NCBI RefSeq assembly: GCF_014635185.1
Contig: NZ_BMCM01000001.1
Span: 248,001 to 312,000 of the forward strand
Reading direction: 5' to 3'
DNA length: 64,000 bases
Origin: Microbacterium murale
Lineage (GTDB): Bacteria > Actinomycetota > Actinomycetes > Actinomycetales > Microbacteriaceae
Shown here: positions 29,528 to 62,808 of the stretch, in pieces
Numbering within the stretch: the stretch's first letter is position 1
Layout of the letters: every line of letters starts with the position of its first letter
Notes under the pieces: model-generated
The model's database searches: none
The model's input: only the letters and a program-made list of their open reading frames with translations
What the model was told of the DNA's origin: nothing
Program-made: the position numbers and the translations under genes

Positions 29528-31165
29528 TCAGACCGTGCGGCCCCCTTCGATCCGCACGACCCGGTCCACTGTCCCCTCCGGCGGCTCGACGTGCGAGATG
29601 AGCAGCACCGACTGCTCGCCCGCGGCGCCCAGCAGATCACGCAGCAGGGCATCGGATGCGTCGGGATCGACCCCTGCGGTCGGCTCATCCAGCACGAGCA
29701 CGGGGAATCCGCGCAACAGGGCTCTGGCGAGCGCGATGCGCTGCGCCTGACCGCCAGATACCAGAGCGCCGCGGTCGCCGACGCGCGCATCCAGTCCGCC
29801 GCGTTCCCGCACCCACGCGCCGAGGCCGACTCGGTCCAGCACGTCGAGCAGCTCCTCGTCGGTCGCGGTGTCGCGGGCGAACAGCAGATTCTGACGGATG
29901 TCCTCGTCGAACAGCTGCGGGCTCTGCTCGCACAGTCCGACGGTACGTCGAAGAGCAGAGCCCGATAGCACCGCGGCATCCGTCCCGCCGATCGCGTACT
30001 CGCCCACTGAACGCAGGAAGCCGACCAGCACCGCCGCCAGCGAGCTCTTGCCCGCGCCGCTCGGCCCAGACACGAGCACGCGCTCACCCACAGCGAGATC
30101 GAGCGATACTCCGCGCAGCGCCGGTGCGCCACCTGGCCAGGACGCACGTACGTCGCGCAGGTGCAGCGCCGTTCCGGCCGGAACGTCGTCGGTGCCGGCA
30201 TCCGGTCGGAGCTCCTCCGGCACCGACGACGGCAGCACGTCGACGATCCGCTGGGCGCTCGCCCGCACGCTGCGCCATGACGACGCCGCGATCGGCACGG
30301 CGCCGAACACCTCGAAGACCACCATCGGCACGAGAACGACGACCGCGAGCCACGGTCCGTCGATCGCGCCGGTCACCAGGCCTGGTGCTGTGACGGCGAG
30401 CGCCCACACCGACGCCACCCCGGCGAGCACCGACACGACACCGGCAGCGACCGCCTGCGCCAGCGACCCGCGGGTGACCGCCCGGCGAAGAGCGCCATCG
30501 GCCCGCTCGACGCGCATGCGGGCCTCGGGCTCGGCGCCGTACGCGAGCAGCACGTCGAGACTGCCGAAGTAGTCGACGACGGATGCTGAGAGCTCGGCCC
30601 GCAGCGACGAGATCTGCAGCTCGGCCCGCGAACCGAACAGCCAGCCGAGTCCGACCGCGACCAGCGCCGCCACCACGAGGCATACTGCGAGCGTGAGTGC
30701 TGCGGGCGGCGACACGAACGCGACGAAGCCGACCGCACCGACGGCGACGACAGCCGTCACGGCAAGCGGCTGCACCACGCGCAGCGGCAGATTCTGCAGG
30801 TTCTCGACATCGTCGACGAGCGCGGAGAGCACCTGTCCGCGGTCCGTCTTCCCAAGGCCCGCAGGCGAAAGCGGAATGAGCCTGCGCACCATGTCGGAGC
30901 GGGTCGCGGCGAGTTGGCGCAGCGCCGCATCGTGACCCGAGAGCCGCTCCAGGTAGCGGAAGACGGCACGCGAGACCGCGAAGAAGCGCACGCCGACCAC
31001 CGCGACCGACAGCGGCACCAGGGAATCGACGATCGAGGCGCTGATGATCAGCCAGCCGCTCACCGCGAGCAGTGACACGGCTGCGGCCGCCGACAGCACG
31101 CCCCAGATCAGCCCGGGCAGGAATCGCCGCACGGGCGGCTGGGCGAGACGCAGGATGTTCTTCAC
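29528..31165 (-). CDS. cydC: Thiol reductant ABC exporter subunit CydC
   Basis: 545 aa: six-helix ABC exporter domain at about residues 1-300, then a nucleotide-binding domain with GPSGAGKSS, signature VSGGQAQR and VLVLDEPTAG. CydDC exports glutathione or cysteine and is needed for cytochrome bd assembly. The GTG start at 31165 overlaps the cydD stop (GTGA). It is last in the cydABDC operon. Confidence 0.92.
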   Translation of the reverse strand: MKNILRLAQPPVRRFLPGLIWGVLSAAAAVSLLAVSGWLIISASIVDSLVPLSVAVVGVRFFAVSRAVFRYLERLSGHDAALRQLAATRSDMVRRLIPLSPAGLGKTDRGQVLSALVDDVENLQNLPLRVVQPLAVTAVVAVGAVGFVAFVSPPAALTLAVCLVVAALVAVGLGWLFGSRAELQISSLRAELSASVVDYFGSLDVLLAYGAEPEARMRVERADGALRRAVTRGSLAQAVAAGVVSVLAGVASVWALAVTAPGLVTGAIDGPWLAVVVLVPMVVFEVFGAVPIAASSWRSVRASAQRIVDVLPSSVPEELRPDAGTDDVPAGTALHLRDVRASWPGGAPALRGVSLDLAVGERVLVSGPSGAGKSSLAAVLVGFLRSVGEYAIGGTDAAVLSGSALRRTVGLCEQSPQLFDEDIRQNLLFARDTATDEELLDVLDRVGLGAWVRERGGLDARVGDRGALVSGGQAQRIALARALLRGFPVLVLDEPTAGVDPDASDALLRDLLGAAGEQSVLLISHVEPPEGTVDRVVRIEGGRTV

Positions 31166-32910
31166 ACGACCACCCCCAGCGCCACGACCTGATCGGCGAT
31201 TGCGCGCGCGGTGCGGCGGTGTGAGACGAACAGGACCGTGGCGCCGGCATCCGCCCGCTCTCGGAGCGCAGCCCACAGGCGAGCCTCGGTACCGGCATCC
31301 AACGCACTCGACGGCTCGTCGAGCGTGAGCACGCGCGCGGGGTCGGCGGCATGCCGATACAGCGCCCGCGCGACGGCGACGCGCTGCGCCTGCCCGCCGG
31401 ACAGCCCGCTCCCCTGCACTCCGAGTTCCTGGGCCGGGTCAAGATCGGCTGCGCACGCGTCATCGAGGGCTTGGCGGATGCCGTCGGCATCCGGGTCCGG
31501 ATCGCCCAGCGCCACGCTCGAGGCGATCGTGCCCTGCATGAGTCCCGGCGCCTGGCCGGCCCAGGCGAGCCAGTCGGAGGGGGCGAGGGTGCGGACGTCG
31601 CCGCCGGCGAACACCGCGTCGCCCTCGAAGTCCGTCGCACCCCGCAGCGCAGCGAGCAGGCTGGACTTTCCTGAGCCGCTCGGGCCCTCGATCAGCGTGA
31701 TCGTGCCGGGGCGTGCGGTGAACGAGACCGGCGGGAGGTCGCGGACTCGGAGGTCGGCCACGTGCAGGGTGGCGGCTTCGACCGGGGCGGATTCGACCGG
31801 GGTAGCGGCTTCGACTCGCTCCGCTCGCTCACCCCGTTTCGTCTCGCTGCGCTCGCTCAACGACCCGCGGCCGAACCCCTGCGGGTCGTTGAGCGACGGA
31901 GCGGAGCGACGGAGACGAAACGGGTTGAGCGAACGAGCCGAAGGCGAGGGAGTCGAAACCTGGCTCCCGCCAGCATCCAGCACATCGAACACGTCTTCGG
32001 TCGCCGCCACGCCCTCGGCCGCGGCGTGGAACTGCACCCCGACCTGGCGGATCGGCAGGAACGCCTCGGGCGCGAGCAGCAGCACGAACAGTCCGACCTC
32101 GAGCGGCATATCTCCGGCCAGCAACCGGAACCCCACTGTCACGGCGATGAGGGCGACCGCGAGCGATGCGAGCAGCTCCATCGCGAAGCCGGAGAGGAAC
32201 GAGAACCGCAGCACCTTCATCGTCTCGCGGCGGTACTGATCGGCTGTGGCCTCGATCTGCGTCGCGGCCCGTCGATCGCGGCCGAACAGCCGCAGCGTCG
32301 CCAGCCCCTGCACCGTGTCGGCGAAGCGTGCGGCGAGATGCTGCAGCGTCTGCCACTGCTTGCGCTGGACGGTGCGAGTGGCGATGCCGATGAGGATGAG
32401 GAACAACGGGATCAGTGGCAGAGTGATTGTCGCCGTCAGCCCGCTCGGCCAGTCCTGCCACCACATCACGAGCACGATCACCGGCGTAGCGATCACGGTC
32501 AGTACGAGCTGCGGCAGATACCGCGAGAAGTAGGTGTCCAGCGCCTCCAGCCCATGGCCGGCCGTCACCGCGAGCGAGGCCTGATTGCGCCCGGCCAGCC
32601 ACCCCGGTCCGAGCCGCCCGACGGCTCTGATCAACCCCGACCGCAGCTGCATGCCGGTGCGCGCCGCGGCGGCCGTGCCTGCGGCATCGGATGCGGCGAT
32701 CAGCGCCCCCCGCAGCAGCGCGAGCCCGAGCAGCCAGACGAGCGACGCCACAACTGAGCGGCCGGCAAGAACCCCGGTGACGGCATCCGTCAGGAACCAC
32801 GCGAACGCGATGACGACCACGGTCTGCAGCACGCCGATCACTGCGGCGAGGACGAAGAATCCTCGCGCGGCACCGGCGTACCGCAGCAGCCTCGGATCTA
32901 CAGGTTTCAC
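31162..32910 (-). CDS. cydD: Thiol reductant ABC exporter subunit CydD with an inserted palindromic-repeat peptide
   Basis: 582 aa from a GTG overlapping the cydB stop. Membrane domain at about residues 1-310; nucleotide-binding domain from about 380 with GPSGSGKSS, LSGGQAQR and VLTLDEPSSAL. Between them, about residues 317-368 are encoded by a 153-bp palindromic repeat (31808-31960) and read ...SLSERSETKRGERAERVE..., a hydrophilic charged linker unlike the rest. All ABC motifs are intact and the frame is kept, so the protein is probably functional despite the insertion. Confidence 0.92.
   Translation of the reverse strand: MKPVDPRLLRYAGAARGFFVLAAVIGVLQTVVVIAFAWFLTDAVTGVLAGRSVVASLVWLLGLALLRGALIAASDAAGTAAAARTGMQLRSGLIRAVGRLGPGWLAGRNQASLAVTAGHGLEALDTYFSRYLPQLVLTVIATPVIVLVMWWQDWPSGLTATITLPLIPLFLILIGIATRTVQRKQWQTLQHLAARFADTVQGLATLRLFGRDRRAATQIEATADQYRRETMKVLRFSFLSGFAMELLASLAVALIAVTVGFRLLAGDMPLEVGLFVLLLAPEAFLPIRQVGVQFHAAAEGVAATEDVFDVLDAGGSQVSTPSPSARSLNPFRLRRSAPSLNDPQGFGRGSLSERSETKRGERAERVEAATPVESAPVEAATLHVADLRVRDLPPVSFTARPGTITLIEGPSGSGKSSLLAALRGATDFEGDAVFAGGDVRTLAPSDWLAWAGQAPGLMQGTIASSVALGDPDPDADGIRQALDDACAADLDPAQELGVQGSGLSGGQAQRVAVARALYRHAADPARVLTLDEPSSALDAGTEARLWAALRERADAGATVLFVSHRRTARAIADQVVALGVVV
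31808..31960. repeat. Palindromic repeat element inserted in frame within cydD
   Basis: Left arm runs from GCTTCGACTC to CTCAACGACCCGC (31868), a twelve-base loop follows (31869-31880), and the right arm runs from GCGGGTCGTTGAGCGA to GAGTCGAAACC (31960). Arms are imperfect complements. The length is 153 bp, a multiple of three. A related half-element lies at 61952-62009 inside another gene and a degenerate one at 57723-57755. Confidence 0.85.
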
Positions 32911-57702: not shown

Positions 57703-58847
57703 TCTGCCCGGAAATCGACACTCCGACTCGCTCGCGCTCGCTCAGTGCGGGTCTCCGCGAGAACCGTGCCGGCGGCGGTCAACCAGCGCGCAGGATCGGC
57801 GAGGGCCGCGTCAGCCGAGCCAGCGAGCTCGGTCAGTGAAGCGGATGCCGCGAACAGAGCGCGATCGGCATCATCGGTGATGCGTCCGGCGACGATCAGC
57901 GCCGGCACATCGGCATCCGCGGCGAGCGCGGCGACGAAAGATGGCACCTTGCCGTCACCCGACTGACCGTCGTAGGAGCCCTCACCGGTGATCACGACGT
58001 CGGCAGCACTCACCTCCGAGGCCAGAGAGATGAGTCGCGCGACCTCTCCTGCGCCGGGCACGAGTCGCGCTCCCCAGGCCACGAGCGCCCCGCCCACCCC
58101 GCCGGCAGCGCCCGCACCGCTGGTGGACGCATCCAGTTCGAGCAGTTCGGCGAGACGGACGAGCGCGGCATCGACGCCGTCGCGATCGGCGGCATCCACC
58201 AGGCCCTTCTGCGGGCCGAACACGTGGGCGGCACCGCGCGGGCCGGTGAACGGGTTCGTCACGTCGGAGAGCACCAGAATCTCGGGGGCGGCACGCAGCT
58301 CCGACAGATCGGCGTGTGCGACTCGCAGCAGACCGCGTGCGCCGGACTCGACTTCGATGCCTTCGACATCAAGGAATCGTGCCCCCAATGCCGACAGCAT
58401 CCCGATGCCGCCGTCCGTCGACGCGCTCGAGCCGATCCCGAGCACGAGGCGCGAGACGCCGTGGTCGAGCGCGGCGGCGATCGCCTGGCCGAATCCGCGG
58501 GAGTGCGCCCCGAACGGGCGCAGCTCGTCGAGCAGCTCGATCCCGGACGTCGAGGCGAGGTCGATCACCGCAGTGCCGTTCGGCGCGTCGTCGGATGCCG
58601 GAAGCAGCAGCCAGTCCGTCGCAACCGGCACGCCGGCCGGGCCGTCGACCGTGAGCGGCATCCTCCGCGAGCCCGTGACCGCGGCGGCGAACGCCGACAC
58701 CGTCCCTTCTCCCCCATCGGCCATGGGTCGCAGCACGATGTCGGCTGTGGAGTCGGCCGTGAGCCAACCGCGCGCGATCGCCGCCGCGGCATCCGCTGCC
58801 GTGATCGTGCCCTTGAAGCTGTCCGGGGCGATGACGACGCGGGTCAT
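57699..58847 (-). CDS. Glycerate kinase (type GlxK/GarK)
   Basis: 382 aa. N-terminal VIAPDSFKGTITAADAAAAIARGW and PMADGGEGT, central GIGSSASTDGGIGM, and later GEGSYDGQSGDGKVP are diagnostic. It phosphorylates D-glycerate, linking a catabolic route to glycolysis. The ATG overlaps the LacI stop (ATGA). The last about 15 residues (ETRTERARASRSV) are encoded by what looks like a degenerate copy of the palindromic repeat found in cydD. Confidence 0.93.
   Translation of the reverse strand: MTRVVIAPDSFKGTITAADAAAAIARGWLTADSTADIVLRPMADGGEGTVSAFAAAVTGSRRMPLTVDGPAGVPVATDWLLLPASDDAPNGTAVIDLASTSGIELLDELRPFGAHSRGFGQAIAAALDHGVSRLVLGIGSSASTDGGIGMLSALGARFLDVEGIEVESGARGLLRVAHADLSELRAAPEILVLSDVTNPFTGPRGAAHVFGPQKGLVDAADRDGVDAALVRLAELLELDASTSGAGAAGGVGGALVAWGARLVPGAGEVARLISLASEVSAADVVITGEGSYDGQSGDGKVPSFVAALAADADVPALIVAGRITDDADRALFAASASLTELAGSADAALADPARWLTAAGTVLAETRTERARASRSVDFRAD
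57723..57755. repeat. Possible degenerate palindromic-repeat arm at the glycerate kinase 3' end
   Basis: CGACTCGCTCGCGCTCGCTCA resembles the arm in cydD (CGACTCGCTCCGCTCGCTCA) with one extra base, and GGGTCTC follows where the element has GTTTCGTCTC. Short and diverged. Confidence 0.45.
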
Positions 58848-60700: not shown

Positions 60701-61567
60701 TCACCTCAGGTGAGGGCTCACCGTCGCGGTGAACGCCTCGGCCGTGCGCCGCACCACGTTCTGGGCGCTGTCGGCCCAGATGTCGGCGTTGAAGATCTCC
60801 ACCTCGATGTCGCGGTCATAGCCGGTCGCGACCACTGCCTCGGTGAGCGAGGCGAAGTCGATCACACCGTCGCCCATGTAGTGCCGCCCGAGCAGCACAT
60901 CGACGGGCAGCGGGGTCTTCCAGTCGCACACCTGATACGTCGCGATACGACCCTCGCGGCCCGCACGGGCGATCTGTTCGAGCACCTGCGGATCCCACCA
61001 GATGTGGAACGTGTCGACGGCCGCCCCCACGACATGTGCGTCGAAGTCCGCGGCGATGTCGAGCGCCTCGCCGAGCGTCGAGACGACAGCACGGTCGGAC
61101 GCGTACATCGGATGCAGCGGCTCGATCGCCAGCGTCACACCGGCCGCCTTCGCGTCCTCAGCAAGCGCACCGATCGCATCGCGCACGCGCTCTCGCGCAC
61201 CGACGAGGTCGCGGTCGCCTTCGGGCAGTCCGCCGGCGACGAGCACGAGCACGGCCGTCGATCCTTCCGCGCCGGCCGCGGCGAGCGTCGCGGTCTCCTC
61301 GATCGCCCGGCGGTTGTCGTCGAGCGCTGCGATCCGTTCGGCACCTTCCGGGAGCGTGAAGAACCCGCCACGGCAGTGCGTGGAGAATCGCAGCCCTGAG
61401 TCGGACAGCATCCGCGCCGCCACGTCCAGCCCGACCTCGTTCACCGGCTCGCGCCAGAGACCGATCGCCTGGATGCCGGCGCCGGCCGTAACCTTCAACG
61501 CCTCTTCGAGGTTCGCGTACTTGATCGTGGCCTGGTTGATCGACAGGCGCGGATCTGCGGCGCTCAT
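60701..61567 (-). CDS. Sugar phosphate isomerase/epimerase family protein (TIM barrel, IolE-like)
   Basis: 288 aa. LSINQATIKYANLEEAL at the start, GIQAIGLWRE, LAIEPLHPMYA (metal Glu and His), GAAVDTFHIWWDP (Asp, His) and VEIFNADIWA complete the metal site. It overlaps the DUF993 gene by ATGA. Related enzymes isomerise or dehydrate keto-sugars and inositol derivatives. Confidence 0.9.
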   Translation of the reverse strand: MSAADPRLSINQATIKYANLEEALKVTAGAGIQAIGLWREPVNEVGLDVAARMLSDSGLRFSTHCRGGFFTLPEGAERIAALDDNRRAIEETATLAAAGAEGSTAVLVLVAGGLPEGDRDLVGARERVRDAIGALAEDAKAAGVTLAIEPLHPMYASDRAVVSTLGEALDIAADFDAHVVGAAVDTFHIWWDPQVLEQIARAGREGRIATYQVCDWKTPLPVDVLLGRHYMGDGVIDFASLTEAVVATGYDRDIEVEIFNADIWADSAQNVVRRTAEAFTATVSPHLR

Positions 61568-62808
61568 GCGACGGTCCTTCCTGCATCGATGCCGTTCAGC
61601 CGCAGCATCCCGTGCCAGCGTTCTCGGGCCAGTTCGGGGTTCTCGAGGGCGAGCGAGGTGTTCGCGAGCTCGATGATGCGGCTGAGGTGCGGCAGGCTTC
61701 TGGCCGAGTGGAGTCCCCCGACCATCTGGAACGCGGGCTGGTGACCGTTGAGCCAGGAGAGGAACGCGACGCCGGTCTTGTAGTAGAACGTCGGCGCGGC
61801 GAACACCTGGCGGCTGAGTTCCTCGGTGGGGCCGAGGATGCGCCGGTACGCCTCGGGGTCGCCCGCGTCGAGCGCTTGGATCGCGGCGGATGCCACGGGC
61901 GTGATCGCCGCGAATGCTCCCAGCAGTGCGTCGGAGTGCGTGCGCGTGGTCGTTTCGACGCGCTCCGCTTGCTCAACGCGTTTCGTCTCGCTGCGCTCGC
62001 TCAACGACCCGATGTCACCGCCGATCAGGCCGACGTAGTTGAAGTCGTCGCCGGTGAACATGCGCACGCCCTCGGGAAGGCGCTCGCGCACGGAGATCTC
62101 GGACTCCGCGTTGAGCAGACTCATCTTGACGCCGGCGATCTTGTCCTGGTTCTCGGCGATGATCTGCAGGAGCACTTCGGATGCCGTCTGCCAGTCCTTC
62201 GCGCCGAAATAGCCCTCAAGCGCAGGGTCGAACGCGGTTCCGAGCCAGTGCAGCACGACCGGCACGGTCGCGGATTGCAGCACCTCGCGGTACACGCGGC
62301 GGTAGTCCTCGGCATCCTTCGCCACCCGCGCGAGGTGGCGGGACGCCATCAGCACAGGGCCGGCGCCGGCTTGCTCTTCCGTGAAGTGCAGCTGCTCCTT
62401 GTACGCGTCGATCACCTGGTCGAGCGTGATGTGCGCCTCTTCGACGTGGTCGGTGTTGACTCCGACGACGACCGATCCGCCCTCTTCCCGCGCGACCTGC
62501 GCGCTGCGGGCGATGAGCTCGCGGGTCGCCGCGGCATCCAGCCCCATGTTCCGCTGGGCGGTGTCCATGGCATCGGCGACCCCGAGGCCCCAGGAGTAGA
62601 CATTGCGGCGGAACGCGAGCGTCGCGTCCCAGTCGATGTCGGCCGGCTGCCCCGGCGTGTTGTCGGCGTGCACCTTGGGCACGACATGCGCCGCGGCGTA
62701 GGCGACGCGGCTTCGCAGCGGAGCGGTCGGACGTGTGTAGATCCCGGACTCGTTCAGCGCAGCATCCGATGTGCTGCCGTCAGGAGAGAGAAGCCTCAGC
62801 GTGTTCAT
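61564..62808 (-). CDS. DUF993 / dihydrodipicolinate-synthase-like aldolase with an inserted repeat peptide
   Basis: 414 aa TIM-barrel protein. VVVGVNTDHVEEAHITLDQV, PVVLHWLGTAFDPALEGYFG, IAGVKMSLLNAESE (candidate Schiff-base Lys) and MFTGDDFNY are typical of DUF993. About residues 267-286 (SLSERSETKRVEQAERVETT) come from a palindromic-repeat half-element inserted just after FNYVGLIGGD and before SDALLGAF, where relatives continue directly. The frame is kept. Start shares a base with the upstream stop (TGATG). Likely a retro-aldol step in a sugar pathway. Confidence 0.88.
   Translation of the reverse strand: MNTLRLLSPDGSTSDAALNESGIYTRPTAPLRSRVAYAAAHVVPKVHADNTPGQPADIDWDATLAFRRNVYSWGLGVADAMDTAQRNMGLDAAATRELIARSAQVAREEGGSVVVGVNTDHVEEAHITLDQVIDAYKEQLHFTEEQAGAGPVLMASRHLARVAKDAEDYRRVYREVLQSATVPVVLHWLGTAFDPALEGYFGAKDWQTASEVLLQIIAENQDKIAGVKMSLLNAESEISVRERLPEGVRMFTGDDFNYVGLIGGDIGSLSERSETKRVEQAERVETTTRTHSDALLGAFAAITPVASAAIQALDAGDPEAYRRILGPTEELSRQVFAAPTFYYKTGVAFLSWLNGHQPAFQMVGGLHSARSLPHLSRIIELANTSLALENPELARERWHGMLRLNGIDAGRTVA
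61952..62009. repeat. Half of a palindromic repeat inserted in frame in the DUF993 gene
   Basis: It runs from GTTTCGACGCGCTCCGCTTG to CTCGCTCAACGACCC. About nine in ten bases match the left arm of the cydD element at 31808-31866, in the same orientation and reading frame relative to the host gene. The partner arm is absent. Confidence 0.85.

Follow-up and report, generated by a model that had tools for sequence, protein, structure and literature searches.

A REP-like dispersed repeat family of Microbacterium, present in frame in conserved genes and linked to a GIY-YIG nuclease gene

Comparison within and across genomes of the genus establishes an in-frame insert in the cydD gene of Microbacterium murale as a member of a family of REP-like, apparently non-autonomous elements that are dispersed in Microbacterium. 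This mobile family appears to be paired with a nuclease of the GIY-YIG type; the linkage of the repeats to the nuclease gene is supported by their association across the genus, and from it we infer that the nuclease probably mobilises the elements.

Results

An inverted pair of repeat units in CydD and a single unit in a DUF993 protein

The window, that is, the whole 64-kb stretch of M. murale DNA analysed here, contains a cydD gene that carries two inverted repeat units (Table 1). The insert spans 153 bp (51 codons), the minus-strand frame of cydD runs unbroken through it on translation, and the Walker A motif (GPSGSGKSS), the signature motif (LSGGQAQR) and DEPSSALD are all present downstream. 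The Pfam ABC_membrane domain ends at residue 277 of the translated stretch and ABC_tran begins at residue 399, so that the insert lies in the inter-domain linker; translation and Pfam agree here with the sequence-only reading, which had placed an in-frame insert between the membrane and ATPase domains and considered the ABC motifs intact. That reading had further described the insert as an imperfect palindrome, and it does contain three sets of inverted arms, of 24, 16 and 15 nt (complementarity 92%, 100% and 87%, respectively), with folding z-scores of -10.1 as single-strand DNA (31810-31957) and -9.4 as RNA (31800-31968, minus strand), 0 of 200 shuffles being as good in either case. Known RNA families at gathering score were absent from 31500-32300. 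An alignment of CydD orthologues, which had been proposed as a check, shows that the nearest relative, G096, lacks the insert. The inverted pair adds a charged, probably disordered linker to CydD.

Table 1 Repeat units and their host genes in the 64-kb window.
Feature	Coordinates	Strand	Evidence and remarks
Composite insert, in frame in cydD: inverted pair of units with a 14-bp spacer	31808..31960	.	About 51 CydD linker residues
Unit 1, 58 bp, model positions 1-58	31810..31867	+	nhmmer E 1.2e-16
Unit 2, 76-bp variant, model positions 1-58	31882..31957	-	nhmmer E 2.7e-10
cydD, ABC transporter CydD with insert	31162..32910	-	Pfam ABC_membrane and ABC_tran, translation; GTG start inferred from relatives
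Single unit, in frame in DUF993 gene	61954..62011	+	nhmmer E 1.7e-16, orthologue alignments; minus-strand reading encodes GSLSERSETKRVEQAERVE
DUF993 gene carrying the second copy	61564..62808	-	PF06187 E 6.9e-160 spans the insert; start at 62808 inferred

A related sequence with a shared peptide, agreeing at about 16 of 19 positions, had been reported in a second gene, and this was borne out: the profile, which was trained on those same loci, matches at 61954-62011, and the CydD and DUF993 insert peptides, SLSERSETKRGERAERVE and SLSERSETKRVEQAERVE, are identical at 16 of 18 positions. The structural model of the DUF993 protein is weak (mean pLDDT 57.7, from 17 sequences), and its block means of about 24-28 across the insert region are consistent with disorder. 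Elsewhere in the window, positions 57724-57750 give a weak partial unit match (E 0.0038), possibly a remnant.

The repeat unit and its distribution

The 58-bp unit (profile consensus TTCGACTCGCTCCGCTCGCTCAACGCGTTTCGTCTCGCTCCGCTCGCTCAACGACCCG) is a tandem of two half-units of about 28 bp; a half-unit, about 28-35 bp long, begins with GTTTCGTCTCG, continues with a variable core and ends with CGCTCAACGACC. The GTTGAGC/GCTCAAC sequences may resemble integron attC. Units are arranged singly, in tandem or as inverted pairs, the CydD insert being such a pair (31810-31867 plus, 31957-31882 minus); inverted pairs fold, and a single unit does not, as indicated by z-scores at 61952-62009 of +2.0 on one strand and +1.5 on the other.

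Searched at the DNA level, the own genome (3.9 Mb) yielded 108 match rows, and the core pattern, with up to two mismatches, matches there 52 times compared to 3 times for the reversed control, so that the repeat family cannot be attributed to chance. The 58-bp profile, built from 37 stretches around the matches together with the window and then run against these same stretches, gives 64 matches in the stretches and the window, with one copy counted twice. The search of related genomes, also proposed in the sequence-only reading, detected the half-unit pattern in 58 of 99 Microbacterium genomes (0 to 115 copies each, with 0 control matches). Close CydD relatives whose organism has a name all belong to Microbacterium, and the CydD of several of these genomes is identical to that of a named species, as for G078 and M. 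aerolatum. Within an order-wide sample of 297 genomes, the seven with the pattern are all among the 13 Microbacterium genomes, and none of the 284 sampled genomes from other genera has it. The exact 28-base pattern was found in 0 stretches of viral contigs, and a blastn comparison of the unit with plasmid and phage sequences gave no match. In the relative G049, the copies are mainly arranged as inverted pairs; an array of roughly a dozen units, alternating in orientation, lies near a GIY-YIG gene in this genome (L235:1792-2565).

Copies within and between genes

In the own genome, 8 of the 41 loci examined hold in-frame copies that are flanked on both sides, or spanned, by Pfam domains. The eight hosts are CydD, the DUF993 protein, the glycine dehydrogenase GcvP, an SdhA-like flavoprotein, the serine dehydratase SdaA (assigned from the second of its two Pfam stretches), a carboxyltransferase fusion and a pair of proteins that each have two ABC domains; one-sided or unproven gene copies (L010, L011, L014, L015, L017, L020, L027, L030, L033 and L043) were left out of this verified set. 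At L042:2484-2677 (C8:76983-77179 of the own genome), partial units in tandem with a spacing of about 27 bp lie between two ABC domains and encode, in frame, a repeated GTLSER peptide.

By a crude, codon-usage-based gene caller, no gene extends across 22 of the 40 clusters located outside cydD, some of these 22, for example, L016 and L038, overlapping a gene's end; the other 18 are gene-spanned, one being the DUF993 copy. The same crude calls place the 22 unspanned clusters between convergent (11), co-directional (8) and divergent (2) gene pairs, with one pair undetermined. In G049, 0 of 10 spanning ORFs tested have Pfam domains on both sides of the copy.

The consensus unit can be read through in four of the six frames because its pyrimidine strand has no stop in any frame and its purine strand has one open frame. 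Most of the unpaired gene copies are in the purine-strand SLSERSETKR frame, a post hoc observation on a small set with counter-examples in L047, L101 and L110. The sequence-only reading had proposed a protein-coding palindromic element; what stands of this proposal is the in-frame, dispersed element with its shared peptide and its likeness to the Rickettsia palindromic elements (RPEs), but the element is not primarily a coding palindrome because the single unit does not fold, over half of the clusters outside cydD are unspanned by called genes and the tested spanning ORFs of G049 lack two-sided domains.

Separate gains in the same loops and an empty site

The CydD linker varies greatly in sequence and also in length, from 34 to 94 residues among the 68 loci (of 99) for which its limits could be set. 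The profile matches the linker in 5 of the 99 loci, namely, in the own genome, in G005 and in three members of a four-member clade, the fourth of which has a remnant. On a 96-row tree built without the linker, this distribution requires four changes, which can be read as three gains and one loss. The linkers of L095, L101, L104 and L139 have both arms in two species, the first arm alone in one and a second-arm remnant in one, all in frame, and this pattern looks like decay or remodelling of an old insert. With a G049-derived model run on 12 chosen loci, the CydD of M. yannicii (L110) is matched at E 1.6e-4, in a further reading frame, and its sister L058 weakly (E 0.079). The CydD linkers of L111 and L072 contain PELVEG and APEPVEG peptides that derive from another type of repeat (GAGC..GTCGAAGG), and further repeat families may thus insert into the CydD loop as well.

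Copies are present in the DUF993 loop at 3 of 30 loci (L185, the own copy, and L197 by profile; L186 by sequence, its copy being rearranged and under the profile threshold) and in the GcvP loop at 2 of 30. For CydD, DUF993 and GcvP alike, the most similar proteins are devoid of the copy, and these comparisons show separate gains by other Microbacterium species in the same loops of all three proteins.

The only clean empty site that we found involves Microbacterium sp. TPD7012 (L107), which has 59 extra bases, including about 15 bp outside the unit, at the overlapping cydB/cydD junction compared with six aligned relatives. The insert is bordered by a 5-bp direct repeat, CATGA, and leaves the stop of cydB and the start of cydD intact. 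At random cuts, a 5-bp direct repeat is expected by chance in 0.8% of cases at 59-bp spacing and in 2.0% at 54 bp; the CATGA repeat suggests staggered cutting with a 5-bp target duplication. As for the features of MITEs that we looked for, namely, a target-site duplication and terminal inverted repeats in common with an autonomous transposon, a 5-bp direct repeat is seen at this one site (0.8% by chance at 59 bp), no transposon was found, and a nuclease gene lies among inverted copies.

A GIY-YIG nuclease gene linked to the repeat

The nuclease gene, located outside the 64-kb window, was missed by the sequence-only reading. Among 20 copy-flanking ORFs examined in the own genome, one at L032, lying between inverted copies, encodes a 102-aa GIY-YIG protein (PF01541). 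A search of 99 genomes of the genus identified a GIY-YIG homologue in 40 at E<=1e-5 and in 24 at E<1e-30. All 22 members compared with PF01541 match it; Y15, G17, H29 and E62 are invariant in these proteins and Y5 and R25 nearly so, and we take these six to be the catalytic positions of GIY-YIG enzymes.

The evidence for a tight linkage between the repeat family and this gene for a predicted nuclease of about 100 aa is strong. In the best 25 of the 30 returned GIY-YIG loci, the element is within 700 bp in all 25, within 200 bp in 21 and on both sides in 20; in the weakest 5, it was not detected within 700 bp. Among control loci, the element is present in 2 of 30 for GcvP (both in-gene), 3 of 30 for DUF993 (two in-gene and one flank copy, L198) and 2 of 30 for CydD, and a wider control, taking 3-kb flanks around 69 named CydD loci, found it somewhere in 15. 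When flanking repeats were sought de novo (E<1e-5, 700 bp per side), they were found at 25 of the 25 best and 5 of the 5 weak GIY-YIG loci of the genus, compared to 8 of 30 GcvP loci, 2 of 30 DUF993 loci and 9 of 28 GIY-YIG loci from other genera, 3 of these 9 belonging to the repeat-linked clade. At the weak loci, the repeats take another form, GGTCTCGATACG...CTACTCGACCACC, which is clear in L273, L274 and L276.

With cut-offs for close homologues (E<1e-30) and copy number (at least three) that were chosen, like the end-type labels below, after inspection of the data, at least three copies are present in all 24 of the genomes that have a close homologue (median 28) versus 20 of 75 others (median 0). 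The difference in copy number gives a Mann-Whitney p of 4e-11, uncorrected for kinship. Part of the co-occurrence reflects phylogeny; a CydD tree built for 30 genomes provides about five independent pairs, with 4.2 on average agreeing and none opposing, which is not significant alone. A profile search of 18 of the 20 genomes with at least three copies but no close nuclease detected none in 14. Eight of these 14 have 10-40 copies without the nuclease, so that it is not needed for persistence, and the elements can outlive it or move otherwise, given that nuclease-free genomes hold many copies.

Nuclease clades and repeat end-types

By inspection, three end-types of the flanking repeats can be distinguished: I (GCTCAACGACC), II (GCTCAGGGACC) and III (CTACTCGACCACC). 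Among 41 GIY-YIG proteins placed in a tree, the 33 that are linked to repeats form one clade (99/99) apart from eight distant, unlabelled rows; 6 of the 33 rows in the repeat clade are also unlabelled, having too few motifs. Repeat-linked proteins share a YxGST motif versus YTG[YW][TA] in the eight distant rows. End-type II corresponds to one sub-clade (97/90). The end-type III rows, which include three from other genera, two of them in other families of the class, fall outside the I+II clade (95/95) and are not supported as a single clade. The GIY-YIG clades thus seem to match different repeat end-types, sorting by position in the tree.

Beyond the class, six plasmid GIY-YIG loci from other phyla were taken from 12 + 7 records. 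At both Methylobacterium loci (L316, at 1420-1910, and L318), inverted copies of CCTTCGAGG...CTCAGGATGAGG flank the GIY-YIG gene; at one of the two, the GIY-YIG match is split in two and the gene may be disrupted. At a Sphingomonas plasmid locus (L315), an inverted pair lies upstream of the gene, not on both sides. Plasmid loci L314 and L319 have no flanking repeats, and L317 has one repeat that is unlike these families. Three viral GIY-YIG relatives show no flanking repeats, the sequence examined for L311 and L312 being short on one side.

Discussion

The reading that we prefer, and consider probable, is that the GIY-YIG nuclease mobilises the repeats. The nuclease would recognise either the ends of the element or the hairpin that an inverted pair forms, and then cut; with the help of host repair enzymes, a copy of the element would be made in trans at a new site, staggered cutting giving the 5-bp target duplication. 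To our knowledge, GIY-YIG enzymes have no strand-joining or strand-transfer activity, so insertion would have to use other enzymes. About half of the copies persist between genes. A copy inside a gene persists if it falls in a tolerant loop of the host protein and does not shift the frame, as the inverted pair in CydD did, giving a new linker segment.

A different possibility, rather unlikely in our judgement but the most substantial of the alternatives, is that the GIY-YIG gene is a passenger, or depends on the repeats for repair or regulation at them, and that another enzyme spreads the elements. The genomes with at least ten copies and no GIY-YIG homologue of the type fit such a role, as does the apparent lack of strand transfer in this enzyme class. 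It accounts poorly for the linkage in the best 25 of 30 genus loci and for the sorting of clades with end-types; moreover, five weaker genus loci and three loci from other genera are flanked by other repeats, and the de novo test separates the genus GIY-YIG loci (25/25 and 5/5) from those of GcvP (8/30), DUF993 (2/30) and GIY-YIG in other genera (9/28). Less likely still is that these are host-functional REP-like elements, such as terminators, mRNA stabilisers or gyrase sites, amplified by recombination, with the coding copies being tolerated accidents. The excess of convergent (11) and co-directional (8) over divergent (2) neighbours among the unspanned clusters is a placement like that of REPs as described in section 15 of PMC3733652, but the single unit does not fold, and the patchy presence among species, the exact empty site and the separate insertions in the same loops require a spreading process.

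The charge and the open frame of the encoded peptide, together with the repeated gains at the linker site, could indicate that the insert gives CydD an adaptive new linker and alters CydDC function. We regard this as very improbable given that the linker is highly variable in length (34 to 94 residues, 68 loci), that frames and orientation differ between lineages and that the same peptide occurs in unrelated proteins. The architecture and inverted pairing of the elements resemble REPINs, where a RAYT (Y1/HUH tyrosine transposase) is the mover. Such an enzyme is the least credible agent here and is contradicted by the search for PF01797, which is absent from the own genome (0/1) and present in 1 of 99 genomes of the genus, the control search being positive in 5 of 14 named genomes.

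According to PMC2817692 and PMC3116915, RAYT-REP systems comprise short, mostly intergenic repeats in inverted pairs and a nuclease-type gene flanked by inverted repeats, with co-evolution of gene and repeat. The Microbacterium family is similar in that its inverted pairs form hairpins and a nuclease gene lies amid inverted repeats, but its enzyme is GIY-YIG rather than Y1/HUH, a single unit forms no stable hairpin, the unit consensus lacks the GTAG head of REPINs and in-frame gene copies are frequent in the own genome. Like the Microbacterium copies, GTAG/CGTC-tagged REPs can be intragenic and encode residues (inserts of 20-82 residues; PMC3733652, section 15); a search of its passages turned up no mention of actinobacteri, Micrococc or Microbacter. 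RPEs, as described in PMC10969869 and PMC6649704, have entered numerous unrelated genes without loss of frame and encode a recurring peptide. Compared by description, the Microbacterium family shares in-frame copies in several unrelated conserved genes and a recurring peptide with RPEs but differs in the host, in the non-palindromic base unit, from which palindromes arise by inverted pairing, and in the linked nuclease. The repeat-linked proteins have the same Pfam domain as UPF0213-type single-domain GIY-YIG proteins, a type to which the solved structures closest in sequence belong (1zg2, E 2.5e-20; 1ywl, E 6.1e-15), but form a separate clade (99/99) with the YxGST motif. By titles and abstract starts, and with subscription papers and preprints outside the scope, our literature search found, among the papers listed, no work linking GIY-YIG with REP-type repeats; within the same scope, none on such palindromic repeats in Microbacterium was on point by title and none on RAYT in Actinobacteria was found.

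A broader proposition, on which we consider the balance even, is that GIY-YIG nucleases constitute a second, unrelated class of REP-mobilising enzymes, present in at least two phyla (Actinomycetota and Pseudomonadota), with each sub-clade having its own repeat type and with in-frame segments written into conserved proteins of Microbacterium. The linked GIY-YIG nuclease is a concrete candidate for REP-type orphans. The in-frame copies in CydD, GcvP, the SdhA-like protein and others offer a free-living, cultivable counterpart to the coding palindromes of Rickettsia, and because filled and empty versions of the same genes exist in close species, whether an insert is harmful, helpful or neutral is directly testable.
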